Assembly: GCA_964017185.1 (NCBI GenBank)
Contig: OZ024870.1
Coordinates: 62,040,812 to 62,104,811, forward strand
Reading direction: 5' to 3'
Source of the DNA: Rugalucina vietnamica
Taxonomy: Eukaryota; Mollusca; Bivalvia; Lucinida; Lucinidae
DNA length: 64,000 nucleotides
Under the pieces are notes generated by a model. It was given only the letters and a program-made list of their open reading frames with translations. It searched no databases and was not told the DNA's origin. Positions 58-64,000 of the stretch are shown piece by piece (within the stretch, counting starts at the first letter, position 1; each line of letters opens with the position of its first letter). Made by a program: the position numbers and the translations under genes.

Positions 58-3000
58 GTAACATACTAGCATTCTTTAATTTAAATCAGATTAAGTCAAG
101 ATCATCATTTGCAATTATATAACGCCGTGTGTTTCTGTAAATGTATGTTATGATTCAATATCAGTAATGCAATATAAGTTAAGCGGAGCAGTCTGGGTCT
201 TTAGTTGAGAGACATACATCCCATTTACTCTGGTATAATCATTTGTTCATTAACCAGTTCCTATATTTCAGATATGACAACAAGGCCGCAAGTTGTAGAT
301 CACGTATATCAGAATTTAAAAGGTATGCTACAATGATGGATTGGAGACTGGATAGGTACTTGTCATATTTGATTTTAAGTGAGTGGACACGTGTAAAACT
401 AACCAATGTTAGAAATGATATAAATGATATTGGATACATTCATCTCTGGGCATCCAGAAATAGGTGAGCGCGGTGGCGTAGTGGTAGAGCATCGGACTCC
501 TGATCGAGAGGTCACGGGTTGATCCCATCTGGTGTCACCGTGTTGTGTCGTTGAGCAAGACACATATTAACTCCACGGAGTACTGGTTAAAACCAAGAAA
601 GCAGGTGGCTCCGTCCCGGTATAACTGAAAGATTGTTTATCTGGGACGTTGAAACTCTATACACACAAAGCTTCCAGAAATTACAATATGAGCCGCCGCA
701 TGGGAAAACAGCATACTGCATATGCGAAAACAAAGGCGCAGTAACTGCGAAGCTGATCAGTGCCTTTGTTTTCGCTACAAGGATAGTACAATTCTTCGTC
801 TTCTAAATCCGAAGTTTCAAGCTTCTAACCTGCTACTGTGAGAGTACAGTCCGGTGTGTGTCAGACCTGGTCAGAAACCCAAATTGTTGGTTTTCTCATG
901 CACAGGCTCATATTGGGTTGATGTTGCTGTTGGGACTGCAAACAATATACAGCATTTCCGCGTGTTACTATTGACTTTTGAGTTTGCTGTCTCCTCCGCA
1001 CCTGAGTCAGAGACAGGTGGATGTGTGTACACGAAAACATGTCCGTATAATGTACACCCCCTTAAACACCACTTTTACATAGCAAAACTGGGGTATGCAG
1101 GGGTATACATATTTTTCTTATTTTTGCTCCAAAACATATATAGATTGTGGGTACTCGTTAGAACCGCCTCGGCGAGGCGGTTCTAACGTGTACTCACAAT
1201 CTATGTTTTGAGCAAAAATAAGAAAAATATCAAAATTTTTCAGCTGAAATTTTTCAATTTTTAAAGCTAAAAATCTCTATATATTGCATTGGCAGGTTTT
1301 CGTAATGCAGATGTCTATGATGCTGTGCTGATCGCCCCTTGTTTACCAATACAACTGTCTTACAGCTATTGTAGTCATGTTTGAAATGACTTGGATGCTC
1401 GTTTGTCACTGTATAGTTGGTCTCATGTGGGTCTATATCTGTCTGGTGTTAAACCTGATCATATGATTTTTCAGAAAAATGGATATTTGTTCAATGTGTA
1501 TATTTCTGTGGCTTTCATTGTTTCCAGAGCAAACTAGAAGTCTGTTCGAGTACAAATGCAAGCAACCTTTCATCCCAACGAAGCAATTTGGGGAAGCCCT
1601 TTCCATGTTTAAGCAGACAGGAAGTGTCATCATTTCCGGAAAACCCGGAGAAGGGAAAACATTTACTGCTTATAAACTGATTGAAAGTTTAGGCCTTACA
1701 GGTATGCTGTCAAGTCCGAAATCAAAGCAAAATGACAATCAGTTTAAATGAATTTGCACCATTTTATACTTGTTTCTGGTTTCCCTTCATCTTCAAGTTA
1801 ATGTGCTAATGAAAAGTGTTATTTTGGCTGTTTCCTGTCTGAAGTTTGGGTGGCGTTTTGTCTGATTGCACCAGTTCCAAATTACTGTTTCTTTAATTTC
1901 TTTAGCTTTGATTATAGAATGCCAATTGGGACCGATAAAAATACACTTTTATTGTTTTAAAATAATAGAAATACTAAAATTACCATGTACCATGTGTATA
2001 GGTGTTCAAAATAGAAATCTAAGTGCTATCCTTCAAAAGAATTGATACATTGTCCCTCAAATTTCAAATCGACAGATAAATGCCTACGACTCTACCATCC
2101 TTCGCAATGGGACCATGTCGGAACAGATGAAATAGATGTTATCTTACTGGATGATATCTTTGGAAAACATCAGCTTGACTCTGGCAGTATAGACAACTGG
2201 TTGCCAGTACTCACAAATTTGGAGGTAAACTCATTTAACAGATTGGCCCCTATCAACTGCAAAGGCAGAGGCATAAAGATGTACCTATTTGTCAATGTAT
2301 AAATACGTTATATGTATGTATATTTACTAAATTTCAATGAGGATTTATAAAAGCGTGTGATTGTCAGGTTTTAGTCCCATGTTATCGATGACGTCATCGC
2401 CATCTTTTCCGATAAGCGGAATATATGAGGGATTATCAATTTGTATTGTGGTGGTGTTACTAAGTGTCATTGTTATATAACTAAAAAGACCAGTATGGGA
2501 TACATGCACATTTTGTTTGGTTGGTTGATAGAGTAGCATGATGTCTAAGTTGCATTTAAACTCGTCTTTATAATCCCATTCTACCTCTTCAGGCCAGCAT
2601 TAAGAGCGGTGAGCTGAAACTTGTTCTTACGTGTAGACAGAACGTTCTCATAGAGGCTGAAAGCAGGCTCAAAGAAATACCATTGATACAGAACAATGTG
2701 ATCAAACTGACTTCCAGTAAACTTACTGAAGGTGAAAAGCATGGTATTCTCGGTGTGTTACTGGATTACCACAAAAGGGACAAGTCTAAAATCAATATTC
2801 CGAAATGCTGTTTTGCATACAAGGCCAACATTGGTTTTCCATATTGTTCATTTTTGTTTAGTGTTGATAAACATCTGTTTGAGTTGCAAGAAAAGTTCTT
2901 TGCAAAGCCAGTTCAGTTTTTCAAAGAGTCTCTTGGTGCAATGAGTAAGAACGTTAAAGCAGCTTTGTTATTTCTGTTTTACATGCAAGGAGAGTGTTCA

Positions 3001-5823
3001 GAAAAAGACTTGAAAAGCAGCATAAAGAAAGCACAATCGAAAAATGAAGAAATACTTGCTTGGATTTCTGACCTAATTGGGATTCAGGATGAAATGTCCC
3101 TCGCTCAGGTTAGGGATTGTTTGGATGAATTATCCGGAGTTTATATCACTCATCTGAATAAATCCTTCACTTTTGCCCACAACATTGTGTATGAGTCCAT
3201 TGCATTAATGCATGCTGAAAAATATCCAGAGGAAGTCATTGAACACTGCACATGGAATTTCATAAAAGGATATGTCGTTACCGTAGGAACACAAGATGTA
3301 GCACAACTGGTTCTCGACAAAGACCTCTATGAAAGCCTGTGTTTAAGGTTTATTACTGTTACCATGACAGGAAAGCCGGAATATCACAATTTTTATGATA
3401 TTCGATCACACCCAACTATGCAGACAAGAGAAATATGTGTGACTTTGTATGAATTGTTACAAAAGCAGGGTAAAATTAGAGACTTCTTCACTTGCCTCAT
3501 GCACGATAATAAGCAAGGGGGTTTCTTGTATGGTTATCTACACAGCAAAGATAAAGATGAAATTCCGTTCTTGGTGGTTGAAGCTATTCCATACTTGAAA
3601 TGCACATGCCACAAACAAAAAATCGACATTTGCTGGAAATGCAACGTAAGGAATGATACAGCACGAGCAGCATGTTTCACAGGAGATATAATCAGTTTTA
3701 TGCTAATGCTTGAAGAGGGTATAACAGTGTCGACTAGTACTATCAGGGATGCATGTACAGGAATGAATCCAGAACTTCTGAAACTTGTGATTTCTACTTT
3801 AAAGGATGAGGGAAAGTTTCTACATGAAGATGTAGGTGTGTCAAAGTCATTAGTCGTGGCAAGAAAGTCAAGCGTTTCCGAGATGTATGAGGTACTAAGA
3901 AACGAAGGAGCAGTAGTCATGCCATTGTGTGTCTATGATGCTGTAGTATTGAAAAGCTTAGAAATTGTTGATCATTTTGTGAAGGAATTGAAAGTGAATG
4001 GTAGATGGGACACTGCAGACTTTTGGCTTCAAAAAGCATTAGAGGAATCTATTTCACATGAAAGCCCTGACATACATAATTTACTCGTTGAAGAGGGGCT
4101 CAAATATCATCGCGGTTGTATATTGTCTGCAGTGAAGAGCAAGGATCTGTCCACTGTTCAAAGGGTTGTAATGGAAATGAAAGCATTGGGCTCTTGGAAG
4201 ACAGCAGATTGGTCCCTTGAACAAGAAATGAGGAAACTCACAAACATGTTACACAGAGGCGAGACAATGGCTGTTCCTACTATCCCATTGCTAGCTGATA
4301 TTGGTGTCAGTGAAGCCCTGATCATCGCAAAGAATTATGAAGACAAAACTATTTATAAATACCTGCAGGATGAAGGGGCGCAAATTACAATGGAAGCTTT
4401 ACCACCTGCCGTTCAGACAAGACAAGAGGATCTTGTTAAAGATGTAATACAGGAACTGAAAGACCAAAATAGATGGGATCCAAACACGCAAAGCTGTGCC
4501 AAAGCTATGCTCACAGCCCTTCGTCAAGATCTTAATGATATACTTGATGTTCTGGTTACAGAGGGATTAACATGTACAATGGAATTATTGTCTCTTATAA
4601 TAACTGAGAAAAATATAACTGTCAAAGACATCGAGACTTTAGTAACCCAAATCAGTGACTTTGGTAATTGGCAACCAGACAGCATTCCTATGCAGTCAGC
4701 ATTAATCCAGGCCTACCAAAGAGAAGAAAAGTCAATATTCAACTTTTTAATAGCAAATGGGGCAACAATTAATCCAGTTTCCGTTTTGACGGCAGTGTTT
4801 TCTCAAGACATCAGCACTGCAAGCATGTGCATTCAAATTCTAAAAGAAAGTCCCAACTGGGACCCATCTGATCAAATATTAAACATGTGCATGCAAATGA
4901 CAAAGTCGACAGCCCCAGAAATGTATGCTCTGTTGCTGAGTGCTGGTGTGGGCTATTCTTCGAAATCTTTACTTGCTGCTGCAGGAAGAAATGATTCAGT
5001 TGCCATTATGATGACCATAAACGAGCTCATAGGTGCGGATATTTGGAAACCAGACACAGACCCAAACATCACACGATCTTTAGAACTTGTTTGTCATCAT
5101 AATAATATGATGATGTTTAACATTTTACAGAAAAAGGGTGCAAAATTAAATGAAGCAGGAGTCTTCAACATCATCCAGGGTTCTAAATCCCTTTGGTATA
5201 ACACTGGTTCTGAAAACCGAAAGGAAGTTATTGGCATACCAACGCTAACTGCCTTGGTTACTGCCTCAATTGCCAGAAAATTTCTAGTACAAGCATTTCA
5301 ACAAAAGGTCATCACTGTTTATGTAAGGCTCATACACGCTCTAGAAGAAACAGGCAGTCTGAATCCTGATGATCCCCTTCTTCGTGACGCTCTTGTGGCA
5401 GCTGTAGAATCAGGAGATATGTTAGCTTATGACATTGCAATGGAGACAGGTACAGAAATGGCAGAAGATATTGTTCTGAAACTGCTATTGAGTATCAAAG
5501 GGGATTTCAGAATTGAACTGCCAGAACGACTCATCAACCTGACATATAAGATTTGCGCCTTTAAATGTTTATTGGAGAGTATTAGGAAAGGAAACATCCG
5601 TGTGGTAGAAGAAATTGCTTTGATAATGAAAGGAAAACAAATGCTGTGTCAAGATGACGAAAGAGTCATTCAAGCTATTGCTGGTATGAAGACATCTAAG
5701 CAAGCTGAAACAATTCAGAAAGTGGTTGCTTTTGAATTTTTATCGGAAAGTGTTGCCCTTCACTTAAAAACAAAACCACAGAAAATGTCAGATGCTGATA
5801 ATGAAGTACCAGCCAATAAATGA
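3..5823 (+). CDS. nSTAND-type P-loop NTPase with C-terminal repeat domain (5' partial, four exons visible)
   Basis: Four exons join in phase: 3-57 (donor GTAACA), 1528-1701 (acceptor TTTCCAG, donor GTATGC), 2076-2224 (donor GTAAAC) and 2593-5823, giving 1202 codons plus TGA. The 5' end lies outside the window. Exon 2 has Walker A GKPGEGKT, exon 3 has Walker B DVILLDDIFG, and exon 4 opens with a sensor-like TCRQN segment. This order is that of the nSTAND3-like NTPases found in many bivalve proteins. Exon 4 then carries a helical region and at least seven repeats of about 62-65 residues (two spacings are longer) marked by W-x-[PT]-x-[DST]; they look like highly diverged ankyrin-like units. STAND proteins generally act as nucleotide-driven signalling switches, often in defence; the ligand and role of this one are unknown. 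No signal peptide or membrane segment is visible in the part present. Confidence 0.85.
466..665 (+). mobile_element. tRNA-derived SINE
   Basis: The head is tRNA-like: A box TGGCGTAGTGG (474-484) and a damaged B box GGGTTGATCCC (516-526, one C short of consensus). The downstream sequence GTCGTTGAGCAAGACAC (547-563) and the GGGACGTTGAAA tail resemble conserved SINE bodies of invertebrates. It lies in the first visible intron of the NTPase gene. It does not fold into a full cloverleaf with paired acceptor ends, so it is not a tRNA gene. Confidence 0.7.
688..911 (+). mobile_element. MITE family B copy (ATGAGCC termini)
   Basis: It begins ATGAGCCGCCGCATGGG and ends GGCTCAT, with the internal GCGAAAACAAAGGCGC block and CTTCTAACCTGCTACTGTGA segment shared by the other copies. 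The left arm of the central hairpin is shortened. It is intronic in the NTPase gene. Confidence 0.8.
1029..1307 (+). mobile_element. MITE family A copy (giant central hairpin)
   Basis: The left end is GAAAACATGTCCGTATAATG and the right end TTTTCGTAATG. The centre is a near-perfect inverted repeat: ATAGATTGTGGGTAC, then GTTAGAACCGCCTC, with their complements on the other side. Both arms extend into CTTATTTTTGCTC / GAGCAAAAATAAG. No coding capacity. It is intronic in the NTPase gene. Confidence 0.85.
1528..1701 (+). CDS. Exon with Walker A motif
   Basis: The acceptor TTTCCAG ends at 1527. The exon encodes about 58 residues, including FEYKCKQPFIPTKQFGEAL and GKPGEGKTFTAYKLIESL, and ends at the donor GTATGC in phase 1. 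GKPGEGKT fits the P-loop pattern GxxGxGK[ST]. It belongs with exons 2076-2224 and 2593-5823. Confidence 0.85.
2076..2224 (+). CDS. Exon with Walker B motif
   Basis: The acceptor AATCGACAG completes the phase-1 codon carried over from 1701. The exon encodes YHPSQWDHVGTDEIDVILLD and then DIFG, which is a Walker B motif with two acidic residues after a hydrophobic strand. It ends at GTAAAC in phase 0. The acceptor is A/T rich and weaker than the others, so the exact 5' edge is a little less certain than the frame. Confidence 0.8.
2593..5823 (+). CDS. Large last exon: NTPase C-part, helical region, WxPxD repeat domain
   Basis: The acceptor CCTCTTCAG precedes 1076 codons. The reading frame is already open upstream of the first Met-like codon, so the exon must be entered by splicing. 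Residues from the exon start to about 200 match the helical/winged-helix region that follows nSTAND NTPases, with the hallmark FPYCSFLF. Repeat landmarks GRWDTAD, GSWKTAD, NRWDPNT, GNWQPDS, PNWDPSD, DIWKPDT and GSLNPDD lie near 4000, 4190, 4470, 4663, 4855, 5038 and 5350. The TGA at 5821-5823 lies inside the terminal ATGAGCC of a MITE. An AATAAA at 6395 is a possible poly(A) signal. Confidence 0.88.
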   Translation, partial: ASIKSGELKLVLTCRQNVLIEAESRLKEIPLIQNNVIKLTSSKLTEGEKHGILGVLLDYHKRDKSKINIPKCCFAYKANIGFPYCSFLFSVDKHLFELQEKFFAKPVQFFKESLGAMSKNVKAALLFLFYMQGECSEKDLKSSIKKAQSKNEEILAWISDLIGIQDEMSLAQVRDCLDELSGVYITHLNKSFTFAHNIVYESIALMHAEKYPEEVIEHCTWNFIKGYVVTVGTQDVAQLVLDKDLYESLCLRFITVTMTGKPEYHNFYDIRSHPTMQTREICVTLYELLQKQGKIRDFFTCLMHDNKQGGFLYGYLHSKDKDEIPFLVVEAIPYLKCTCHKQKIDICWKCNVRNDTARAACFTGDIISFMLMLEEGITVSTSTIRDACTGMNPELLKLVISTLKDEGKFLHEDVGVSKSLVVARKSSVSEMYEVLRNEGAVVMPLCVYDAVVLKSLEIVDHFVKELKVNGRWDTADFWLQKALEESISHESPDIHNLLVEEGLKYHRGCILSAVKSKDLSTVQRVVMEMKALGSWKTADWSLEQEMRKLTNMLHRGETMAVPTIPLLADIGVSEALIIAKNYEDKTIYKYLQDEGAQITMEALPPAVQTRQEDLVKDVIQELKDQNRWDPNTQSCAKAMLTALRQDLNDILDVLVTEGLTCTMELLSLIITEKNITVKDIETLVTQISDFGNWQPDSIPMQSALIQAYQREEKSIFNFLIANGATINPVSVLTAVFSQDISTASMCIQILKESPNWDPSDQILNMCMQMTKSTAPEMYALLLSAGVGYSSKSLLAAAGRNDSVAIMMTINELIGADIWKPDTDPNITRSLELVCHHNNMMMFNILQKKGAKLNEAGVFNIIQGSKSLWYNTGSENRKEVIGIPTLTALVTASIARKFLVQAFQQKVITVYVRLIHALEETGSLNPDDPLLRDALVAAVESGDMLAYDIAMETGTEMAEDIVLKLLLSIKGDFRIELPERLINLTYKICAFKCLLESIRKGNIRVVEEIALIMKGKQMLCQDDERVIQAIAGMKTSKQAETIQKVVAFEFLSESVALHLKTKPQKMSDADNEVPANK

Positions 5824-38298: not shown

Positions 38299-40977
38299 TT
38301 CCTCATATGCCGATCACTGAATTGGAAAACGGCTCCGAATCAGTTTGGGTAAAGGTATTTGCGAACAAAACTTCCCATTTTGTGGCAAGTTGGTATCGAC
38401 CTCCAGATGGTAAGATGGAGGAACTTGAGTTATTCAAAGACCAACTTGAAAAGGTGAAAACTTTACATAAAGGAAACAAACCCCCCTCGGTCCATGTCAT
38501 GGGTGATTTCAACTTCAGAGATATTGTTTGGCCAGATAGACTCAACAAACTAGGTTTTTCATTGAGCGTGTCTGAAGGTGCAAAGTTGGTAGAACTTATA
38601 AGTGACCACGAATTGGAACAGGTAGTGCACTTCCCCACAAGAGGACAAAACACATTAGATTTGATTATCACTTCACTTCCCGAACAATTTGTTGATATTC
38701 ATTCCCCGGACAGGCTTAGTGATCATGACATTGTCTCTGGAACTTTGAAAATAGTTATTCCCCCCATCAAGAAACCTAAGAGAAAGGTGTATAAATATCA
38801 GAAAGGTGATTATGAATCTATGAAAGGTGATGCCCTTAAATTTGCAAAGGAGAAATATTTCAACGGTTACTCTGGCACACGGTCGGTTCAAGAAAACTTT
38901 AATTTGATCACATCTTTTATCCAGGAATCAGTGGATAAACATATCCCATCAAAGACTAGTCGCTCAGTTTCCTCAGTCCCATGGTTAACTCCTGAAATAA
39001 GAAGAAAGATTCGTAGAAAAAATGCAACTCACGCTAAAGCGAAGAAAACTGGGAATGCAAAATTTAGAACGAAATTTGAAACTTTGAGAAGAGAAATCAA
39101 AGCAGATATCAGAAAACAGCATGAGTTGTATGTAAATAACTTGGTTGGTGATGTTAAGGCTAATCCAAGAGATTTTTATCGGTACATAAATAGTCAGAAA
39201 AAAGATGTTCAAGGTATCCCCCCTTTGAAAAAGCGAAATGGAAGTGGTCTTGCTGAATCAGATTTTGAAAAGGCTGGTGAATTCAATGGTCAGTTTACGG
39301 ATGTGTTCACCAAAACTGAACATAGCCAGGTCCCTCTTCTGAATAGAAAAGCCCCGTTTATGGAAGACATAGTGGTATCCAAAGAAGGTGTCACAAAACT
39401 TCTGAAAGGTTTGAACCCGTCGAAAGCTTTAGGTCCTGATGAGCTTCATCCCAGAGTCCTTAAGGAATTGGCATCTGAGCTAGGTCCTGTTTTTGCACAT
39501 CTTTTTCAACAGTCAATAGACTCGGGTGAAATCCCCAAAGAATGGTCCTTAGCAAACATTTGTCCCCTGTTCAAAAAGGCTGACAGGTCTCTTGCTTGCA
39601 ACTATCGTCCAGTTTCCTTGACCTGCGTACCCTGCAAACTTCTGGAACATATAGTGTGTTCTAATATCATGTCCCATTTGGATCATCATAAACTTTTGTC
39701 AGACAGGCAACATGCATTCAGGAAATCCCACAGTTGTGAAACCCAGTTAGCTACAGTGATTGATGACTGGGCAAAAATCTTAGACAATCAAGGTCAGGTT
39801 GACACATTTATCTTGGATTTCGAAAAAGCTTTTGACACTCCTCCGCATGAACTCCTTAAAAGCAAATTGTTCAGTTATGGAATTGGTGGGAAGACAATTA
39901 AATGGATTGATGCCTTCCTTTGCTATAGACAACAAAGAGTTGTGGTTAATGGCGTTAAATCAGACTGGGCTCCTGTTGTATCTGGTGTCCCACAGGGCAC
40001 CGTTCTTGGCCCCTTGTTGTTTTCGTTGCATATAAATGATATCACCTCAGATATTGAATCGGAAATCAGACTCTTTGCTGATGATTGTGTTTGTTATCGT
40101 GAAATTAAGAATGTGGAGGATACAGTGAAACTTCAGAAGGATATTGATCGATTAGGAAGTTGGGCCAGGAAATGGGGTATGAGATTTCAACCTGTCAAGT
40201 GCAACATGATGCAGCTGACAAATAAACGTACTAGTAAAATTCAGGCTTCTTACAAGCTTGAGGGTACTGTGCTGGAAAATGTTGAGAGTATCAAATATCT
40301 TGGTGTAACAATAACTAAGGATTTAAAATGGAATACTCACATCAGCAATGTGTGTACCAAAGCCAATAGGACCCTTGGTTTTTGAGACGAAATCTGTTTT
40401 CTTGCCCCCAAGATGTGAGAGAAGCTGCCTATAAAGGTCTGGTGAGACCTATTCTTGAATATGGTAGCTCAGTTTGGGACCCTCATTATGAAGGTTTGAT
40501 AGATGATTTGGAGAAGGTGCAAAAGCGTGCGGCTAGGTTTGTAACTAGGAACTATACATATGAAAAAGGTAGTATGACTGGCATCCTTAAAAAACTAAAA
40601 TGGGAATCCCTGCAGAAAAGAAGGAAGGATAATAGAATTATATTACTTTACAAAGGTCTAAAAGGGAGAGCAAAAATACCCACGGATGACCTTATCCCCA
40701 AAAATAGGCGTTGTAGGAATCAACACTCCTTGGCATTTCAGATACCTTCAGCAAGTACAAATGCCTATTTACACAGTTTCTTCCCCCAGACCATTAGAGA
40801 TTGGAATGAACTCCCTGATTCTCTGATCTCCTCTGCTGAATTGTCAGATGATTGTGTGTCTAAATTTACTTCTCTTGTGAGAGCTCGGGACTAATCCCCT
40901 CCGGTCAAGCCCCATCCCCCCCTGGTGTAGTATTGTCAGTTTGACGTTTCACCAGTAAGCTATTCTGATTCTGATTC
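38299..40977 (+). mobile_element. 5'-truncated Jockey-superfamily (CR1/L2-like) LINE
   Basis: The element begins inside the endonuclease domain and ends in a TTCTGA microsatellite tail (40960-40977). TGATA is present at 38294-38298 and 40978-40982. The uninterrupted paralogue at 15296-15645 (AATGATAGAAC) confirms both edges. The direct flank repeat and near-intact ORF indicate a recent insertion. Confidence 0.88.
38307..40894 (+). pseudogene. LINE endonuclease (partial) and reverse transcriptase, one frameshift
   Basis: 38307-40385 is open for 692 codons: endonuclease C-half (HVMGDFNFRDIVWP, LDLIITS, LSDHDIV), then the RT with YRPVSLTCVPCKLLEHIV, DFEKAFDTPPH, SGVPQGTVLGP and FADDCV (the YxDD box reads FADD, an accepted variant in LINEs). 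A frameshift in the T run at 40379-40384 ends it at TGA. The next frame (40382-40894) continues the thumb/C-terminal region (VRPILEYGSSVWDPH, WNELPDSLISS) to TAA. A one-base loss in the T run explains this. The N-terminal endonuclease is missing through 5' truncation, so the copy is dead. Confidence 0.9.
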
Positions 40978-53359: not shown

Positions 53360-53622
53360 ATGAACCACTGCAGAAGCTGAGGGTGAGGTTACGGCCGTGT
53401 AAAATCGATTTAAACCCGCCAGTAACTTTGTGTTACTGATCGTTCCAAGTCGATACTTCTGTGGTGGTTCTTTTTGTTTTATGTCTTGGTGTTTAAAATA
53501 TTTTTGTGCTGTTGGTGCCTTATGTATGTTTGCATATTTTTAGTTAAGTTAAGGTAACTGAGTGGCCACCTATTGGGAAAATAGCTGCTCATTCGGCTTA
53601 CGAAATGTTTTCATGGTATAAG
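53360..53622 (+). repeat. Retroelement 3' tail (family R3), cut by the LTR element
   Basis: CCACTGCAGAAGCTGAGGGT to TCGGCTTACGAAATGTTTTC, contiguous with the RT fossil 260 bases upstream. It ends where the 5' LTR begins; in other copies the tail continues with GGAGTGGGA. Confidence 0.75.
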
Positions 53623-54852
53623 TGTAGTGACAAGAATTTGGGGTTTAGAGTCTTTCATTAATGGCTTGTTTTGTCCAAGTGGGGGGTTATGATATGCATA
53701 GTTTTCTTTAAAAATGTTAAATTAATATTGTTAATCTTTAAATGTTCCATGGTAACATACTGAAGATTTTATTTGTCTTGGTATTGTACTGTTTTTGACG
53801 AAAGCATCTAAATTTATTAATCTTTTGCAAACTTTATGCCTGTCAAACATCATATTTAAAATTGTTAATTGATAAGTAATTGATTATTGATCTTTGATTT
53901 CTAGGAATTTTCTAAATATAGTTTTCCAATAATTGTGATTTGTACTTTAAAGGTTAAAGTCATCTTCAGGCGCCATATTTGAAAACTTTATAAAATTCAA
54001 CTGTCAACAGATTTTGATCATCTATATCTTTAAAGTAAAGTATTTCCAAATTATCCTGTTTAGTCCATATTGTTCAGAATTTCATCGAGAATTTATTTCT
54101 GTAAATGTTTTATTGCAAATAAGTGAATTTAGTTACATATTTTAAAGTAAAAGGTCGTTGTTTACATTTTTTCCCACGAAATTTTGTGTTGGAAACTCTT
54201 GTGGGATGATGTTGGATGGTTCCGTGGGTGCTTTCTTGTGGGAATTTTGGGACAATTGGGGTGCGGGCATTTGTGGGATATAAAAGGCTGCCGACTGAGT
54301 GTTGCTGGGGGCTTCTTTTCAGAACATTGTAGGGTACAGACGTGTTTTTGGTTAGCTCTTTGAAACTTTGTTTCTTTTCTAAAATCAGCATTATTTTTCT
54401 AAATTTGGATCTAAAAAGTAATTATTAGTAAATTTTGGCATAATTTAAGGAATTTTATCCAGTAAAATATATTTTGTCTTTGATCAATTTTAAATTTTAA
54501 GAGATTCATAATTCAGATAAATTCTTTCATCTATAGAATCATTCCAACATCATCCATATTGATGTAAAAATATTTGTTAATATCATAGTCACTGACACCC
54601 AGATCATTAATTTTGAAATCATATTTATTTTGCCATTATCAAAATAATTAAAAACCATGGAATTTCCATTTTTCTCATCATTTCACAGCCTTATTTAAAT
54701 CTTAAGTTTGAAGCCCCAAATACCCAGCCTTGTCAAAGGTAAACCATAGTATCCTTGTGTCTGGCGTCCGTCGTCCGTCATGCTACCACATATGCATTAG
54801 GCAAACCAAAACAAGGTAGCCTCTGGTACCCCTAACCACCTACCCCGTGACA
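53623..54852 (+). repeat. 5' LTR
   Basis: Begins TGTAGTGACAAG exactly where the older R3 tail is interrupted and ends CCCCGTGACA three bases before the primer site, so it has the TGT...ACA form. It contains a TATA box at 54279. Length about 1230. Its 3' partner is not in the window, so the 5' edge rests on the interrupted repeat. Confidence 0.72.
54279..54286 (+). promoter_or_regulatory. TATA box of the LTR promoter
   Basis: TATAAAAG in the context GGGATATAAAAGGCTGCCGA. Transcription would start about 25-30 bases downstream, near 54310, within the LTR as expected. Confidence 0.65.
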
Positions 54853-56529: not shown

Positions 56530-58196
56530 AAAGTCAAAATGGCCTGACTCAAGATTCTTCAAAACCTGATGATCCAATACGACGGGGTATCCAATCATCT
56601 GATACCATTTATGTTTCCGGGTCAATTAACGGGGTCAAGGTCAATTTTGTGGTGGACACGGGCGCTGAGAAAACCGTGGTTTCGAAGAAGGTTTTTGACA
56701 AAATCAGTAAAAAGGACCAGCCAAAATTAGTTAAAAAGGGCAAGCTCTTGCATGCAGGTGGTCAAGCGATGACAGTCTATGGTAGATGCAAAGTGAACAT
56801 AACACTAGATCAAGTTAGCTTACATGATGAGGTTGTTATTGCCGAAATCAATGATGAGGTGTTACTTGGCATGGATATTCTTAAAGGCAAGGATGGCAAA
56901 CCAGCAGACATTATACTGAGCCAAAGTAAAATCCTCTTGAATGGGCATGAAATAAATTGTCAACACTATTCGCAAATTTGCGACAGAAAAGTAAGAGCTG
57001 CCGAAGACTATAAAATTCAGGGTCATACTGAGCAAATAATAGATGCATTTGTAGAGCGGTGCGAAAGTGATGACAGCTTATCCAGCTCAGATTTCATAGT
57101 AGAACCGTCAAGAAATTTCATAGAAAATTTCCCCCTTGTAATGGCCCCTTGCTTGATAGACATCAATTATGCACCCACAGTCAAGGTCAGGGTAATGAAT
57201 CCTTTCCCCACAGAGGCTAGTATTAAAGCAGATACAATAATTGGCTATGCAGAAATTCTCACGTGCAAACCAGAAAGTTTTCAAGCATGTGAGAATGAGC
57301 AAGAAAAGGGTAACTCAAGCTCTGTGCGAGGTCTTAAGTTTTCAGATGTGCATGATGACCAGTTAGGTAGAGTAAATACGGTTAAGTCTGAGAACTTTTC
57401 CCATACTGATGCAACATCCAACAATGACCAATTTTCGCCGGCCCAATCTGAAAACCAAGAATGCAACATACCCCAGCACTTGCAACAATTATTCGATGAA
57501 TCGTCTGAAGGCCGGTCACAAAAGGAAACTCTAGAAATTAAAAAGCTGCTATCCGAGTATCAGGACATATTTTCTAAACATGATGATGATCTTGGCCTAA
57601 CCAGTCTTGCGGAGCACCGCATTGATCTGACAGACTCAAAGCCGATCAAACAGCCATTTAGGCGTGTCCCGCTTGCATTTGTAAATGAAGAAAAACAGGC
57701 TATTGACAAATTACTGAAACAGGGTGTAATAAGGCCATCCAGTAGTCCATGGGCATCACCACTTTGTCTCGTGCGGAAAAAAGATGGCAGTGTAAGGCCG
57801 TGTGTGGATTACAGACGACTAAACAAGGTTACAAAACCAGATGCTTTTCCTGTCCCAAAGGTTGATGAATGCATTGATGCAATCTCCGGTTCGAAGATTT
57901 TCAGTACTGTCGATCTCACCTGTGGGTACTTTCAGGTACCCGTCAGAAGCCAGGATATCCCTAAAACAGCTTTTGTTTCTAGACATGGCCTGTACGAATT
58001 TACATCCACCCCATTTGGAATGATAAATAGCGGGGCGACGTTCCAGCGGGTGATGGAGTTAGCCATGAAAGGTCTTAACTGGCAGATATGCATCATATAC
58101 AGTATATTGATGACTGTATCATTTTCTCATCAACATTTGATGAGCACATTGAACGATTACGACTTGTATTTCAGAGATTTCGCCAGGCGAATTTAA
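56490..58196 (+). pseudogene. pol: Pol fragment 1: protease and N-half of reverse transcriptase
   Basis: The frame runs from the slip site. An aspartic protease with the DTGA active site (56655-56666) and LLGMDIL flap-side motif is followed by a linker of about 200 residues and the RT fingers/palm (QGVIRPSSSPWASPLCLVRK, VDYRRLN, FSTVDLTCGYFQVPV, FGMINSGATFQRVM). Near 58098-58110, just before the YIDD box, a short insertion shifts the frame, and this frame ends at 58196 in unrelated residues. It is disabled by that shift; the protease itself looks intact. Confidence 0.88.
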
Positions 58197-59005
58197 AGCT
58201 CAAAGCGAAAAAGTGTGAACTCCTTAGAAATACGGTGACCTTCCTAGGTTTCAAGGTCACAGAAAATGGTGCATGTCCAGACCCAAACAATGTTGCAAAG
58301 GTTTTGCAATGGCCTGTGCCGGCCAATGTAACTGAGGTAAAACAGTTCCTTGGCTTATGCTCTTACTACAGAAAACATGTCAAACAATTTAGTATCATTG
58401 CTAAGCCATTATTTGACCTCACAAAGAAAGACAGCAAACTGGTCTGGAACAATGAGTGCCAATGTGCATTTGACACCCTCAAGAAAGCTCTCACAAGCAA
58501 TCAGGTCATGGCATTACCAACAGCTAATGCGGAAGGTCTGATAATTGATGTAGATGCTTGCGACTACGGAATCGGCTGTGTGTTGAGCCAAGTACAAAAC
58601 GGAGAGGAGAGAGTGATTGCCTATGGTAGCCGGTCACTGAACCGGGCTGAAACAAATTACTGTGTGACAGACAAAGAACTGTTGGCTATAAAATACTTTG
58701 TAGAATATTTCAGGCACTATCTTCTCGGTCAACACTTCGTAGTGCGTTCAGACCATCTTCCATTGAAATTTTTGTTTAGTATGAAGAATCCCACTGGACG
58801 CATTGCTAGATGGATCGAGATCCTGTCTGGATTTGACTTTGAAGTTCAATATCGCAGAGGTTCTCGACATCAGAATGCTGATAGTATGAGCAGGTGTAGA
58901 AATCCAAAAGATTGCTCGTGCTCAGACATTGACAATGACGAAAGTCTCAAATGTGGGCCATGCAAGAAGTGTTTGAAGAGGGCCGAGCAGATGGATTCTT
59001 CCTGA
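58103..59005 (+). pseudogene. pol: Pol fragment 2: RT catalytic YIDD box to RNase H
   Basis: The next frame begins with YIDDCIIFS and continues LKAKKCELLRNTVTFLGFKV, VTEVKQFLGLCSYYRKHVKQ. The RNase H follows (DVDACDYGIGCVLSQ, VTDKELLAIKYFVEYFRHYL, RSDHLPLKFL, ARWIEILSGFDFEVQYRRGS). A Cys-rich tail CSCSDIDND...CGPCKKC precedes TGA at 59003. A frame change just before 59005 leads into the next open segment. Confidence 0.88.
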
Positions 59006-59385
59006 CAGAAAATATCAAATTATCCCATGCATCTAGATGTTCTGATTCAGACTATAGCCAGGAAAATATGGCAAGAGGAGTTATGTCCCTTCTAGCCTGT
59101 GTGACAAAGCATGTTGCTTTGATATTCACAATTCTGATATCCTTATTTCTTGTAACAGGTGAAGGCTGTAGACTTCTACCCCAATTTTATCTTTTCTGTG
59201 GTACATGTCTAACCTTGACTGTTATAGCTGAGAAGAGAAAATCACTGATGTGTAGAGTTAGTGCCGTACTCGTACGCTACCTGAATGCGCTTTTGCTCAG
59301 GGGAGTTGAGTGCACTGGGACTCTCAATCACACTTTACAGATTCTTATGAAAAGAATCGGACTTGCTAGTATCACTATGATGTGA
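59006..59385 (+). other. Pol linker region with hydrophobic open frame
   Basis: In the +1 frame relative to the preceding fragment the sequence stays open for 125 codons and encodes a strongly hydrophobic stretch (TKHVALIFTILISLFLVTGE; QFYLFCGTCLTLTVIAE). RNase H-integrase linkers of this class are normally hydrophilic. It may be a real but unusual linker, an insertion, or frame noise. Confidence 0.4.
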
Positions 59386-60824
59386 GGTTGGCTGCGCTAA
59401 AGACTGGACTGCAATGTCGTGCTGCTACCACGAGGTCCAAGTCCCAAGCGCTAGACAGCTGGTTACCATGGTCAGATGGGTACTCAACTGAAAACCTGCG
59501 AGAAATGCAGGACAAAGATGTTAACATTGGACCTATTTTTAGGTGGTTTAGCTCAGGAAGTAAGCCTGAGGGAAGCATAGCGGCTTCATCTAGTCCGGAG
59601 ACTAGGCATTATTTGCAGTGCTGGGATGCACTGGTGTTGAAAAATGGCATTTTAATGCGGAAATTTCAGAAAAAGGACGGGTCGGGTGAATACGACCAAT
59701 TATTAGTCCCTGCATGTCTGAGAAAAGATGTACTTTTTCAGATGCACAACAGTCTTCTGTCTGGACATTTAGGTCAGAAGAAGACAAAGGAAAAGCTTTT
59801 ACAGTGATACTATTGGTATCAGGTCAGAGAAGATGTGAATCTCTGGGTATCACGGTGTGACATATGCGGTGCCAATAAGCCTCCAGTACACAAACCGAGA
59901 GCCCCTTTAGGGAGCATGCCGGTGGGAGCACCCTTGGACCGCTTGTCCACAGATCTACTTGGGCCATTTCCAAGGACACAGAGGGGCAACCGATATGTGT
60001 TAGTTGTCAGTGACCAGTTTAGTAAATGGGTCGAAATAGTTGCGATTCCAGACCAGACAGCAGAAACCACTGCTAGGGTGATCTTGAATGATGTCATAGC
60101 CAGATTTGGATGTCCCATTTCGATCCATAGTGACCTAGGTGGTAACTATGAAAGCAGAATATTTAAGGAACTTTGTGACTTGTTAGAAATAAAGAAGAGC
60201 CGAACATCAGTAAGAAATCCCAAGGGCAATGGTCAAACTGAGAGGTTCAATAAGACACTTGTCCACATGATACGGGCGTACCTTACTGGTGAGCAAAATG
60301 AGTGGGATTTGAACTTAGGTTGTCTCGCAGCTGCCTACAGGGCAACTCCGAATGAAAGCACTAAAATGACTCCCAATCTGTTGATGCTAGGTAGGGAAGT
60401 AAGACTTCCTGCAGAAGTAGCCTTTGGTAGTACAACCATGTCCGGTGAAAGTGTCTCATCCTATGGTGAATATGTTGAGAAACTGAAGGCAAATATGCAG
60501 AGGGCTCACAATTTCTGCAGGAAGTATCTGAAAGAAAGTGCAAAAAGACAGACGGATATTTATGACCACAGACAATTGTTACACAAGTATGAAAAGGGCG
60601 ATCTTGTCTGGTTCTTACAAGCAACGAGAAAAGAAACCATCTGTCCGAAACTGCAGATGCCGTATGCTGGTCCCTTTCTGGTTAAAGAAAAGCTTAGCAA
60701 CCAGAATTACATTCTGCAGTTTGCCAAGGATGGAGATACCAGAGTCATTCATCATGACAAATTGAAGCCGTACACGGGCGACAGTCCACCAAAGTGGATT
60801 GTCAGTGCGAAGAAATCTCTTTAA
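59382..60824 (+). pseudogene. pol: Pol fragment 3: integrase, one nonsense codon
   Basis: A single frame with one internal TGA at 59805-59807. N-terminal HHCC zinc motif spans the stop: His in MHNSLLSGH, Cys in CDIC. The catalytic core keeps D (LSTDLLGPF), D (SIHSDLGGNY) and E (NGQTERFNKTL). The C-terminal part is KYEKGDLVW and HHDKLKPYTGD, without a chromodomain. A C-to-T change in a CGA codon would explain the stop. Ends at TAA 60822. Confidence 0.9.
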
Positions 60825-61239
60825 GAAGACAACTCTCCTCTCTTGTTCCTATCCAAGCTGTATTAAATCTCTCGACTTATTCCAGGATGGAAGGTTACAT
60901 AGTGTCAGAATGTCATGGTCAAATTCAAGATTCATACTCTGTGTATCTATGTGCATAGAAACATGTTTTGAAATTTCAGGAGGTTGTGCTTGTGAAGAGC
61001 CAGAAAATCTGATCAGCTCCATTACAACACTAATCAATGGTGTCACATTGATGGGAGACTATGATGGTCAGCTGTTGATTGTTAAAAATTGCTGGTAGAA
61101 ATAAACCGTATAAACTGACATGTGTTTGCTGTTCATTTAACAACCCTCCATAGTGACATAGTCTATGATGTTCTATGGTACCGCGCAAATTGAATATCTA
61201 CTATGCAGATTTTCTTGTTGCAGGTGTTGAAGTACTATA
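60825..61239. other. Region between integrase and the downstream ORFs
   Basis: An overlapping 99-codon frame starts at 60799 but has no recognisable features. A splice-acceptor-like TTTTCTTGTTGCAG ends at 61223. Confidence 0.4.
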
Positions 61240-61563
61240 ATGGCTAGCACAAATCCTGATGTTACCATGAAGGCGGAAGGTTCTATGGAAACCAAATCAA
61301 ACCAAGCTCAAGGTCTAACTAGTCAACTTGAAGGTTCTACCCATACTATGGCAGGCTACACATATAATGCGGCTGTAGATCTGTTTGTCCTACAACATAA
61401 AACAGATGAAAATGCTGGCTTGAGAAGACAAATAAGCAAGGTGATGGCTAAAAGATGCAGACTGTTGGAACCACCAGTCCTGTGGATGCTAGAATCAACT
61501 TGTATTGTGATGACCTCTATATCAGGGAGAAGCCTTCTGATACTCAATCTAGAAAATAGATGA
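61240..61563 (+). CDS. Small ORF of the LTR element, 107 aa, unrecognised
   Basis: The ATG is 17 bases after the acceptor-like TTGTTGCAG. It encodes MASTNPDVTMKAEGSMETKS, an acidic/polar N-half and a hydrophobic C-half (PPVLWMLESTCIVMT, GRSLLILNLENR). No domain recognised. It could be an accessory ORF, a degraded exon, or chance. Confidence 0.3.
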   Translation: MASTNPDVTMKAEGSMETKSNQAQGLTSQLEGSTHTMAGYTYNAAVDLFVLQHKTDENAGLRRQISKVMAKRCRLLEPPVLWMLESTCIVMTSISGRSLLILNLENR

Positions 61564-62205
61564 AGTGCAAAATTGTCCAATCATGAATTGTGAGAGACTA
61601 CCTATGAGTTTGTGAACAGTCATGCTAATGAACCGCAATATCATATTGATGATCTATTGCAAAAATTAGTCGAAACCTATCTGCCATGGCATAAAACAGC
61701 CAAATAACTGTAGATGCTTATCACAGATGTTTCGATGCTAGTCAACAAATTGTGTGTATACAGAAAATATAAAACTTTACCATTGACCGGCAACAGTGAA
61801 GAAAATCCGGGTTAAAAGGGCAAAATATCACAGTCATGCAGTCGTCCAGCGACACAGTAAATACATGTATATCACAAAGCACTTAATCCTTATTGTCTGC
61901 AAATTGCAAGTATCACAGAAATATGACGGTTGACCAGCAACCTTGCTATCACAGACGCCATGATTGATATGTACATACCTAGATGCGGTATTCAGTTGAG
62001 GGTGATTTTGTACAAGATGTTATCTGTATCTATAACGACATTGAATGAGAAGCTAGAGTGTCCAAGATTTGTTGTTCCTTCCCCCCCATCACCCCACAAT
62101 GGTCCTCTATATGTCAGTGACTATGGTTTAAGTAAACATGTTTACAGGGATGTCTTATGCTTACAAACACTTCTGCTTCCAGATTAAAATCCAGCCAATC
62201 CAACC
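61564..62205. other. Leader region upstream of ORF3
   Basis: No supported ORF. TTCTGCTTCCAG at 62171-62182 is a good splice acceptor 24 bases before the ORF3 ATG. Confidence 0.45.
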
Positions 62206-63699
62206 ATGTCATCATCAGTGGTAAATTTTGAGGACTTAGACGAAGACAGTCTGAAGAGGTTGCGTCATCGTGGGCGGGCAAACCGGTGCAACACTTGCCT
62301 TGCGGATGAGAACAAGATGGTGATCCTAGAGAAGGGGCGCATGGAGGCACACATCTACCGGGAACATATTCCCTTTGCTAGAGCACCTTTCAGGTGTACC
62401 CTCTGCCAATTCAGGTGTAAAGACAGACAGACTCTGAAGGACCACACTATCAACTATAAGCCTCACGTGAAAGCTGTTAAAGTGGCCGCGTGTCCAGTTA
62501 CTGATGATTGCTTAAAGGAGAGCCTCAACCCGTATATCGTATCCGAAGAAGACTATCATGTATATTCACAGGAGGAATCTGTCAAAGTATGGCATGAACA
62601 GAGGCAGAAGAGGTCAGGTCCTAGAGAAAGCACAGCATTCCTAGACGGGGCTTTAGCAGAGACGATAAATGATGCAGATCTGCAAACAGTGCTGCCAGAT
62701 ACACAGCAGCAGGGGCATACCACAGATGGAGCAGCTCAGGGGCAAGCAGATTCAACTGACCAAACTCTCCAGATTCTATCCAGCCTGCTCAACAGTGGTC
62801 TACTTCAACTCGGTCCCGGGTTTGATGTTGCGTCACTGCAGGCGGCTGTTCCCAACCAGGAACAGGGCTGTGAGCAGACAAAAGTTGACAAACCAGACGA
62901 GACTGCTGCAAGAGCTAGTGCTACACCAGTGCAAGATGAGACGGAAATACCACCGGGTTGGTCACCCACAACCGCCTTCAAAGCCTCGTTACCTCCTAGA
63001 ACAGAGACGAAAAGTCATGATGATTCTGGCCCCATTGACTTGACAAGGAAGACGGTACCACCTCCTCCCGCACATGGCGGGAAGTCAGCCCAACCAGTCC
63101 CCAAAGCACCTGGTGCCCTTGACCTAACAACATCTAAGGAGGTCACAGAGGATATCAGAGGCCAGCTGTTGGAAGATCCTCAGGCCCAAACACTGGACGA
63201 AGATGTCAGGCATGTCAGGGCAAGGTCTGAAGACCCCGAGGCTAAAGAAGGTGCCGCCTCACCCGCCCATAGCACTGGGTCCAGTTATTCTAGCAGCTTC
63301 TCATCTTTAGCTGTGGAGGGTCACCTTGAAGATATAAAGAAGCTGGTCGAAGATAGGACCAAGACGTTAGAGAATGAAGTCAACTCGAACTCCCGAACTA
63401 TCTGGCAGCTTGAGAAGGTGATACGGGAACAGAGTGAAATGCTTAAGACCATGCAGGCAACGTTGAGTACTTTCGTAAGCTATACCCGTGGATACAATAG
63501 AGAAGAGAGACGACTACAGGAGAAGAGAGATGGAGACCGGAAAGCAGAGAGGGAGGAAGACCTGAAGAAGTTAGAAACACTGATCAAATGCCACACCTCA
63601 AAGAGGAAGAGAGATGATGACGAGAGCCCAAAAGAGAACTCCAAGATGAAGTCTCTACTTGGAAATGTGTACCCAAAGAACAAAAAACAAAGGAATTAA
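62206..63699 (+). CDS. ORF3: zinc-finger, CtBP-motif, coiled-coil protein in env position
   Basis: 497 codons, ATG (ACCATGT) to TAA, uninterrupted. Residues 28-54: C28, C31, H49, H54, a C2H2-like finger with a long spacer. Residues 64-87: C64, C67, H80, H87 within FRCTLCQFRCKDRQTLKDH. Residues 145-370 are low-complexity, Gln/Pro/Ser/acid rich, with P276-IDLTRK and A304-LDLTTSK, the first fitting PxDL[ST]xK. Residues 375-455 predict a coiled coil (HLEDIKKLVEDRTKTLENEV). Basic clusters KRKR (466-469) and NKKQRN at the end suggest nuclear import. No signal peptide or membrane segment, so it is not an envelope protein. Inferred role: DNA- or RNA-binding nuclear regulator carried by the retrotransposon. 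A host single-exon gene flanking a truncated element is the alternative. Confidence 0.75.
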   Translation: MSSSVVNFEDLDEDSLKRLRHRGRANRCNTCLADENKMVILEKGRMEAHIYREHIPFARAPFRCTLCQFRCKDRQTLKDHTINYKPHVKAVKVAACPVTDDCLKESLNPYIVSEEDYHVYSQEESVKVWHEQRQKRSGPRESTAFLDGALAETINDADLQTVLPDTQQQGHTTDGAAQGQADSTDQTLQILSSLLNSGLLQLGPGFDVASLQAAVPNQEQGCEQTKVDKPDETAARASATPVQDETEIPPGWSPTTAFKASLPPRTETKSHDDSGPIDLTRKTVPPPPAHGGKSAQPVPKAPGALDLTTSKEVTEDIRGQLLEDPQAQTLDEDVRHVRARSEDPEAKEGAASPAHSTGSSYSSSFSSLAVEGHLEDIKKLVEDRTKTLENEVNSNSRTIWQLEKVIREQSEMLKTMQATLSTFVSYTRGYNREERRLQEKRDGDRKAEREEDLKKLETLIKCHTSKRKRDDDESPKENSKMKSLLGNVYPKNKKQRN

Positions 63700-63790
63700 A
63701 TGTGAAAAGGAACTTAATCATTAAAATAAAATGTGAAAAGGAACTTAATCATTAAAATAAATGTGAAAAGAAACTGAATTGTTCAAAAAA
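63700..63790 (+). repeat. Short tandem repeat after ORF3, 31-32-bp unit
   Basis: AATGTGAAAAGGAACTTAAT followed by CATTAAAATA occurs twice, with a third partial unit (AATGTGAAAAGAAACTGAAT). It is placed directly after the ORF3 stop, in what would be the 3' non-coding region. Confidence 0.85.
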
Positions 63791-64000
63791 TGTGACTAGG
63801 AATTGAATTATAAGAAAAACTGAATGGACTGTAAAGTGTAAAACATATATAATCATTGAATTGTTGTTGAAAAACTTGTGGACAATTTCGTGTTCACATG
63901 ACTGATAAGTTGGTGTGGCACTCATGTGATTTTGAGTTTGACAGACAGGTTGGAAAAATGATTGGATGCAAGGCTTTACCGAGCACCGTTTCATTTTAGC
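63791..64000. other. Window end, no LTR seen
   Basis: No TGTAGTGACAAG and no long polypurine tract are found up to 64000, so the 3' LTR, if present, is outside. Confidence 0.5.

Follow-up and report, generated by a model that had tools for sequence, protein, structure and literature searches.

A C2H2 zinc-finger gene in the env position of Ty3/gypsy elements of Rugalucina vietnamica

A third open reading frame (ORF) in a gypsy element is usually classed as env or env-like, and the env gene of gypsy and the errantiviruses lies after the integrase, with a splice acceptor before its ATG. The window analyzed here, a stretch of 64,000 nucleotides from the lucinid bivalve Rugalucina vietnamica (C2:62040812-62104811), contains most of a Ty3/gypsy (Metaviridae) element whose third ORF, referred to as ORF3, shares with the gypsy/errantivirus env gene both this position and an upstream splice-site-like sequence, but encodes zinc fingers and no membrane segment.

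Extra ORFs between pol and the 3' long terminal repeat (LTR) are an already known kind of gene. CERV of Cer1, a Ty3/gypsy element of C. elegans, is a nuclear protein with a Cys finger, made from a spliced mRNA whose first exons are also those of gag, and genomic RNA export depends on it; it has a helical multimerizing part and a basic nuclear signal, evolves fast between species and contains M and G domains (PMC10309623). Compared by features only, CERV and ORF3 are alike in kind, each being an extra non-env Ty3/gypsy protein with a Cys-type finger, a helical part and basic runs; a spliced mRNA would be a further likeness. Unlike CERV, ORF3 has its own ATG and C2H2 fingers, and lies entirely after the integrase. 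LTR retrotransposons of bdelloid rotifers carry varied non-env ORF3s between pol and the 3' LTR, usually with spliced messages, encoding GDSL esterases, DEDDy exonucleases, coiled-coil proteins, transmembrane proteins or paramyxovirus-type env (PMC5408684). Plant LTR elements have additional ORFs at the same place, some with nuclear products, the sense ones being env-like and the antisense ones encoding other proteins (PMC7264820). The term 'zinc finger' does not appear in the text searched in either article. Among molluscs, Steamer-like elements of Mytilus chilensis are LTR retrotransposons with a single Gag-Pol ORF of 1376 amino acids (aa) and LTRs of 185 bp (PMC11046912). No C2H2 ORF3 located behind a splice-site-like sequence and spread across an assemblage of gypsy elements turned up in the papers searched, which included PMC5408684, PMC7264820, PMC8220671, PMC11046912 and PMC12440569.

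ORF3 as a gene of the element

The host genome (1.09 Gb in 47 contigs) was searched, and the 10 kb following the window were also read. A repeat search within the window revealed no second occurrence of the 5' LTR region between the integrase and the window end; the 3' LTR lies just past that end, at extended positions 64437-65668 (L009 1248-2479 in the host-genome sequence). The two LTRs are approximately 99.5% identical, with six differences (four substitutions and two one-base gaps), and the pair is flanked by a TAAG target duplication. Reading of the sequence located a primer-site-like TGGTGGCAGCGG two bases 3' of the 5' LTR and the purine tract AAAGTGGGGGG preceding the 3' LTR, so that LTR pair, target duplication, primer site and purine tract of a Ty3/gypsy element are all present. 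Domains named with Pfam follow the Ty3/gypsy order (gag, then protease, reverse transcriptase, RNase H and integrase) upstream of ORF3 and on the same strand. Frame changes and stops interrupt pol in this copy; gag and ORF3 both have open frames. Given the LTR pair with its six differences and the TAAG duplication, the element is a young one of about 12.0 kb (53623-65668) with ORF3 inside it. The preliminary description of this DNA, which had placed a 497-codon ORF after the integrase, on the same strand and before any 3' LTR, was thus borne out, and the possibility it had raised of a 3' LTR ending before position 62206 was refuted. The 3' LTR itself, the splice-like sequence, the 1.4-kb spacer before ORF3 and the state of the genes (pol broken, gag and ORF3 open) go beyond that description. 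A host-gene reading was ruled out for the window copy by the flanking LTRs.

At least 89 matches to ORF3 were obtained in the host genome, merging into 79 loci. An integrase lies upstream on the same strand at no fewer than 50 of these, 46 of them within 6 kb by coordinates and four more by reading (L040, L043, L045 and L047, the last two with a partial integrase); among the 79 loci none has an integrase in another order or strand within 8 kb. Nine other ORF3 loci were read over 18 kb each. Five (a_C1, f_C9, g_C4, h_C5 and i_C15) carry gag, pol and ORF3 in order, and the remaining four (b, c, d and e) are remnants without integrase, c having LTR and gag pieces upstream. No 3' LTR occurs in a_C1 within the 18-kb stretch read. 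In loci f, g, h and i, ORF3 is approximately 28% identical to the window ORF3, forms open frames of 709-713 aa and lies between LTRs whose pairs are 98.4-100% identical (the 5' LTR being truncated at the boundary of the stretch read); h_C5 and i_C15 have an open pol frame of 1285 aa, whereas that of f and g is split. These four are young elements, distantly related to that of the window. Among another 20 ORF3 copies, an integrase lies within 2.2 kb upstream in 17 and at about 2.8 kb in L034 and L041. The remaining one, L046 (G000:C9:50037619-50037966), contains a 745-codon ORF3-type frame with no integrase in the 2.2 kb upstream, and may represent either a divergent element or a copy set free from one. 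ORF3 therefore belongs to the element and travels with it. None of the copies is misordered. For 29 of the 79 loci no integrase was found nearby, the five examined by reading among these being b, c, d, e and L046. Nor is ORF3, being multicopy and linked to pol in the host genome, a single-copy gene without pol.

The preliminary description had treated ORF3 as a peculiarity of one element, a scope that proved too narrow. We scored 122 of 3080 candidate integrases, the gypsy groups read all having at least 37% integrase identity to that of the window. A window-type ORF3 follows 46 of the 70 integrases that are at least 53% identical to the window integrase, and none of the 52 below 53%. Of the 24 apparent exceptions, four were examined by reading: in three a diverged ORF3 retains the two fingers (one spanning just 110 codons), and L052 has no ORF3 in the 2.5 kb downstream of its integrase. 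The ten integrases of 37-46% identity whose downstream sequence was read (L059-L068) are each followed by at least one C2H2 finger, which in eight is in the ORF from its ATG on and in L063 and L066 lies in the open frame before or across the first ATG. Searches with the ORFs of L062, L064 and L067, one using the strongest 32 of 57 matches and another 7 of 16 (fragments and weak matches excluded), showed that, of the 52 integrases below 53%, 16 are followed by an L062-type ORF, 13 by an L064-type and 4 by an L067-type one. In a profile comparison L061 joined the window type and the L062 type did not; ancient divergence and repeated uptake are thus both possible, and the fingers of the more distant gypsy groups were perhaps acquired separately. 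ORF3 characterizes the integrase group as a whole and also occurs, in other forms, in additional gypsy groups of the genome. A non-env zinc-finger gene, preceded by a splice-site-like sequence, has been retained by an entire integrase group that includes young members.

Two protein searches listed 15 relatives of ORF3, all from ENA or Logan contigs, each cluster having 1-19 members. The ORF3 of f_C9 and P0009 are identical, P0002 shares its frame with a_C1, and two more, P0130 and P0132, match the window ORF at 97-98% identity; judging by their sequences, these four probably derive from the same species as the window. P0003 to P0008 (37-56% identity) have no like copy among the at least 89 genome matches, and window-type ORF3s therefore exist in other genomes. 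For gag, 120 of 414 relatives were listed, and the only animal named among those listed is the limpet Patella caerulea. Three gag proteins (P0024, P0030 and P0091) are filed under the bacterial symbiont Candidatus Thiodiazotropha, and probably represent host DNA in symbiont assemblies.

Protein architecture, selection and flanking RNA features

ORF3 runs from ATG to TAA over 497 codons, a length not approached in 200 shuffles of the local 2 kb (longest stop-free run: mean 114, maximum 254 codons). Its two Cys/His clusters, already noted in the preliminary description, comprise the finger ligands C28, C31, H49 and H54, and C64, C67, H80 and H87, which are invariant in all seven aligned sequences (the window ORF and six relatives, excluding P0009 and also P0002, without this part). 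Cys2His2 ligands are also conserved across the ORF3 subfamilies aligned, and the window-type subfamilies share an N-terminal domain of approximately 130 residues consisting of RGRAY, the two fingers and then PY..DY..ES. A structure model built from 12 sequences (mean pLDDT 54.6) predicts a folded part at residues 5-138, which covers the proposed region 20-95 and corresponds to the double C2H2 domain, followed by disorder at 139-365 with a Leu-rich helix at 183-196, this middle part not being reliably modeled, and a single helix at 366-472, in keeping with the coiled coil proposed earlier. The C-terminal basic motifs of that description are likewise found as basic runs in the window ORF; many R[ED] pairs occur in ORF3 C-termini, and L053, L054 and L056 end in RS repeats. 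No RRM domain matched in 21 distinct ORF3 sequences, so the layout of SR proteins (RRM, then RS) is not seen. Neither the window ORF, nor its relatives, nor any of nine loci scanned matched a Pfam family above cut-off, C2H2 matches being sub-cut-off only. By hydropathy alone, none of 19 ORF3s has a membrane segment, in line with the preliminary description of the window ORF (highest 19-residue mean 1.38, and 0.98 in the window ORF). Identity with env was accordingly rejected: the position fits, and by hydropathy none of the 19 encodes a membrane-spanning protein.

ORF3 is under purifying selection. Its ratio of nonsynonymous to synonymous substitution rates (dN/dS) is 0.06-0.33 in seven comparisons, deeper pairs being saturated, and is similar to that of gag (0.22 and 0.32); pol gives 0.04 for h versus i and 0.18-0.19 for the window versus a_C1. 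Across codons 1-142, the window and a_C1 ORF3s differ at 4 first, 6 second and 37 third positions. Positions 62475-62925 of ORF3 are approximately 80% identical to a_C1, with surroundings mostly at 93-99%, and are probably a mosaic produced by recombination between subfamilies.

A pyrimidine tract and AG ending 2-24 nt 5' of the ORF3 ATG was observed in all 24 copies scored (L030 and L044 were excluded, no in-frame ATG being resolved). Scored with a rough matrix of our own, in copies that are not independent within a subfamily, this AG ranked 1-9 among the 120-230 AGs of the 2 kb upstream, and 0-16% of 40-nt windows equaled it. The sequence is also present in subfamilies of unlike sequence, and P0004, P0006 and P0008 carry the same stretch upstream of ORF3, read in other frames. 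In 160-nt scans, the top structured stretch lay between ORF3 and the 3' LTR both in the window element (z -7.5, 125 windows) and in h_C5 (z -4.0, 143 windows). In the window family it is a predicted hairpin of approximately 60 pairs, which includes L009 812-870 and is kept in a_C1 and c_C6.

Possible functions of ORF3

We propose, as the best explanation and with about even confidence, that ORF3 is a spliced third gene for a nuclear nucleic-acid-binding accessory protein, likely acting on element RNA in a CERV- or Rev-like manner. As the third Ty3/gypsy gene, in the env position, ORF3 would be translated from a subgenomic mRNA spliced at a 3' site immediately ahead of its ATG. The protein would be nuclear, with the double C2H2 domain binding nucleic acid, the long helix forming multimers and the charged C-terminus contacting host RNA-processing factors. 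Its target would most likely be the unspliced genomic RNA of the element, as for CERV in Cer1 and Rev in lentiviruses: the spliced mRNA would first make the protein, which would then permit nuclear exit of the intron-containing genomic RNA, to be packaged and translated into Gag-Pol. The presence of a splice acceptor in that RNA would by itself make an export protein of this kind necessary. The preliminary description had suggested a nuclear regulatory or nucleic-acid-binding protein in place of env; that ORF3 is an element gene and not env-like held, and on sequence and model it looks like a nucleic-acid-binding regulator, while its nuclear location is something we infer, as are splicing, RNA rather than DNA as target, and export.

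The proposed RNA role is suggested by enclosure within LTRs, linkage to the element, openness in young elements, selection, the splice-like site, the finger ligands, the lack of a membrane segment, the R[ED]/RS C-termini, the RNA structure and the CERV precedent. Several observations weigh against it. C2H2 fingers more often bind DNA, and CtBP-like motifs in some ORF3 members point to transcription. No canonical export signal was recognized by eye in ORF3, and the fold search gave weak matches, none significant. The window copy has one of the lower-scoring splice-like sites (rank 8 of 135, with 13% of 40-nt windows as good), and no shared strong splice donor was found in the leader. Covariation in the hairpin is small, both sides having changed in only two arm pairs, and the hairpin may be either a cis element or, less favorably, a fold-back insertion.

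The main rival, which we consider possible but distinctly less probable, is a DNA or chromatin factor whose binding to the LTR or to host chromatin would direct transcription or integration, with some members recruiting a CtBP-type corepressor. The C2H2 arrays of CTCF, Kaiso and Ikaros recur as weak matches in both sequence and fold, and motifs of the PxDLS type, the type carried by CtBP-binding proteins, are found in the window ORF (PIDLT and ALDLT), L049 and L067; however, these are only 3 of 19 ORF3s, and the RE/RD- and RS-rich C-termini together with the presumed spliced layout suit work on RNA at least equally well. A nucleic-acid-binding protein with corepressor-like motifs could also repress its own LTR and so limit its element by self-silencing or copy-number control, self-silencing being one of the roles suggested, beside targeting and RNA export, in the preliminary description. 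We find this improbable, since young multicopy subfamilies would not be expected to preserve a pure self-brake, and the ORF3s of f, g, h and i are open and ORF3 is under purifying selection. A structural or cell-exit protein replacing env, with a particle or membrane role exerted through the coiled coil, would fit the env position and the putative, env-like splice acceptor, but the absence of a hydrophobic segment from all 19 ORF3s and the conserved double finger make it similarly improbable. It is very improbable indeed that ORF3 is a host gene, or a passenger that happened to be captured beside the element: although 24 of the 29 loci without integrase nearby were not read, four of the five that were are broken remnants, the other being the open frame of L046, and ORF3 lies between LTRs in the window copy and in f, g, h and i.

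Returning to the proposed control of element RNA, a broader reading, which we put forward only tentatively, is that in this animal a large Ty3/gypsy assemblage turned the env position into a spliced C2H2 regulatory gene controlling its own nuclear RNA, as in complex retroviruses, with uptake of such genes on more than one occasion in different gypsy lineages. If ORF3 does regulate genomic RNA, control of this style would be commoner in LTR elements than is suggested by CERV, the sole worked example found. The dozens of natural ORF3 variants in one genome offer material for testing which parts matter.

Feature coordinates and other observations

Coordinates of the features of the Ty3/gypsy element in the window (extended positions continue past the window end)
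Feature	Position	Strand	Remarks
Target site duplication TAAG, left copy	53619..53622	.	right copy at extended 65669-65672
5' LTR	53623..54852	+	paired with 3' LTR at extended 64437-65668
gag, 523 aa	54949..56520	+	Retrotrans_gag
pol: protease, reverse transcriptase, RNase H, integrase	56649..60824	+	several frames in window copy
Integrase	59835..60824	+	Pfam
Spacer between integrase and ORF3, ~1.4 kb	60825..62205	+	longest same-strand stop-free run 110 codons
3' splice-site-like sequence (pyrimidine tract and CAG)	62158..62182	+	23 nt 5' of ORF3 ATG
ORF3, 497 aa: double C2H2 domain, disordered middle, long C-terminal helix (predicted)	62206..63699	+	
31-nt tandem repeat, ~3.5 copies, at ORF3 end	63697..63802	+	
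Predicted RNA hairpin, first part	63895..64000	+	continues to extended 64059 (L009 706-870)

Other tandem repeats occur soon after ORF3 in f_C9 and at a like place in c_C6. Elsewhere in the window, positions 38307-40894 contain ORFs that resemble LINE-type reverse transcriptases, as judged by eye from their translation, and positions 2683-5823 hold an open frame of 1046 aa that is perhaps a host coding exon.
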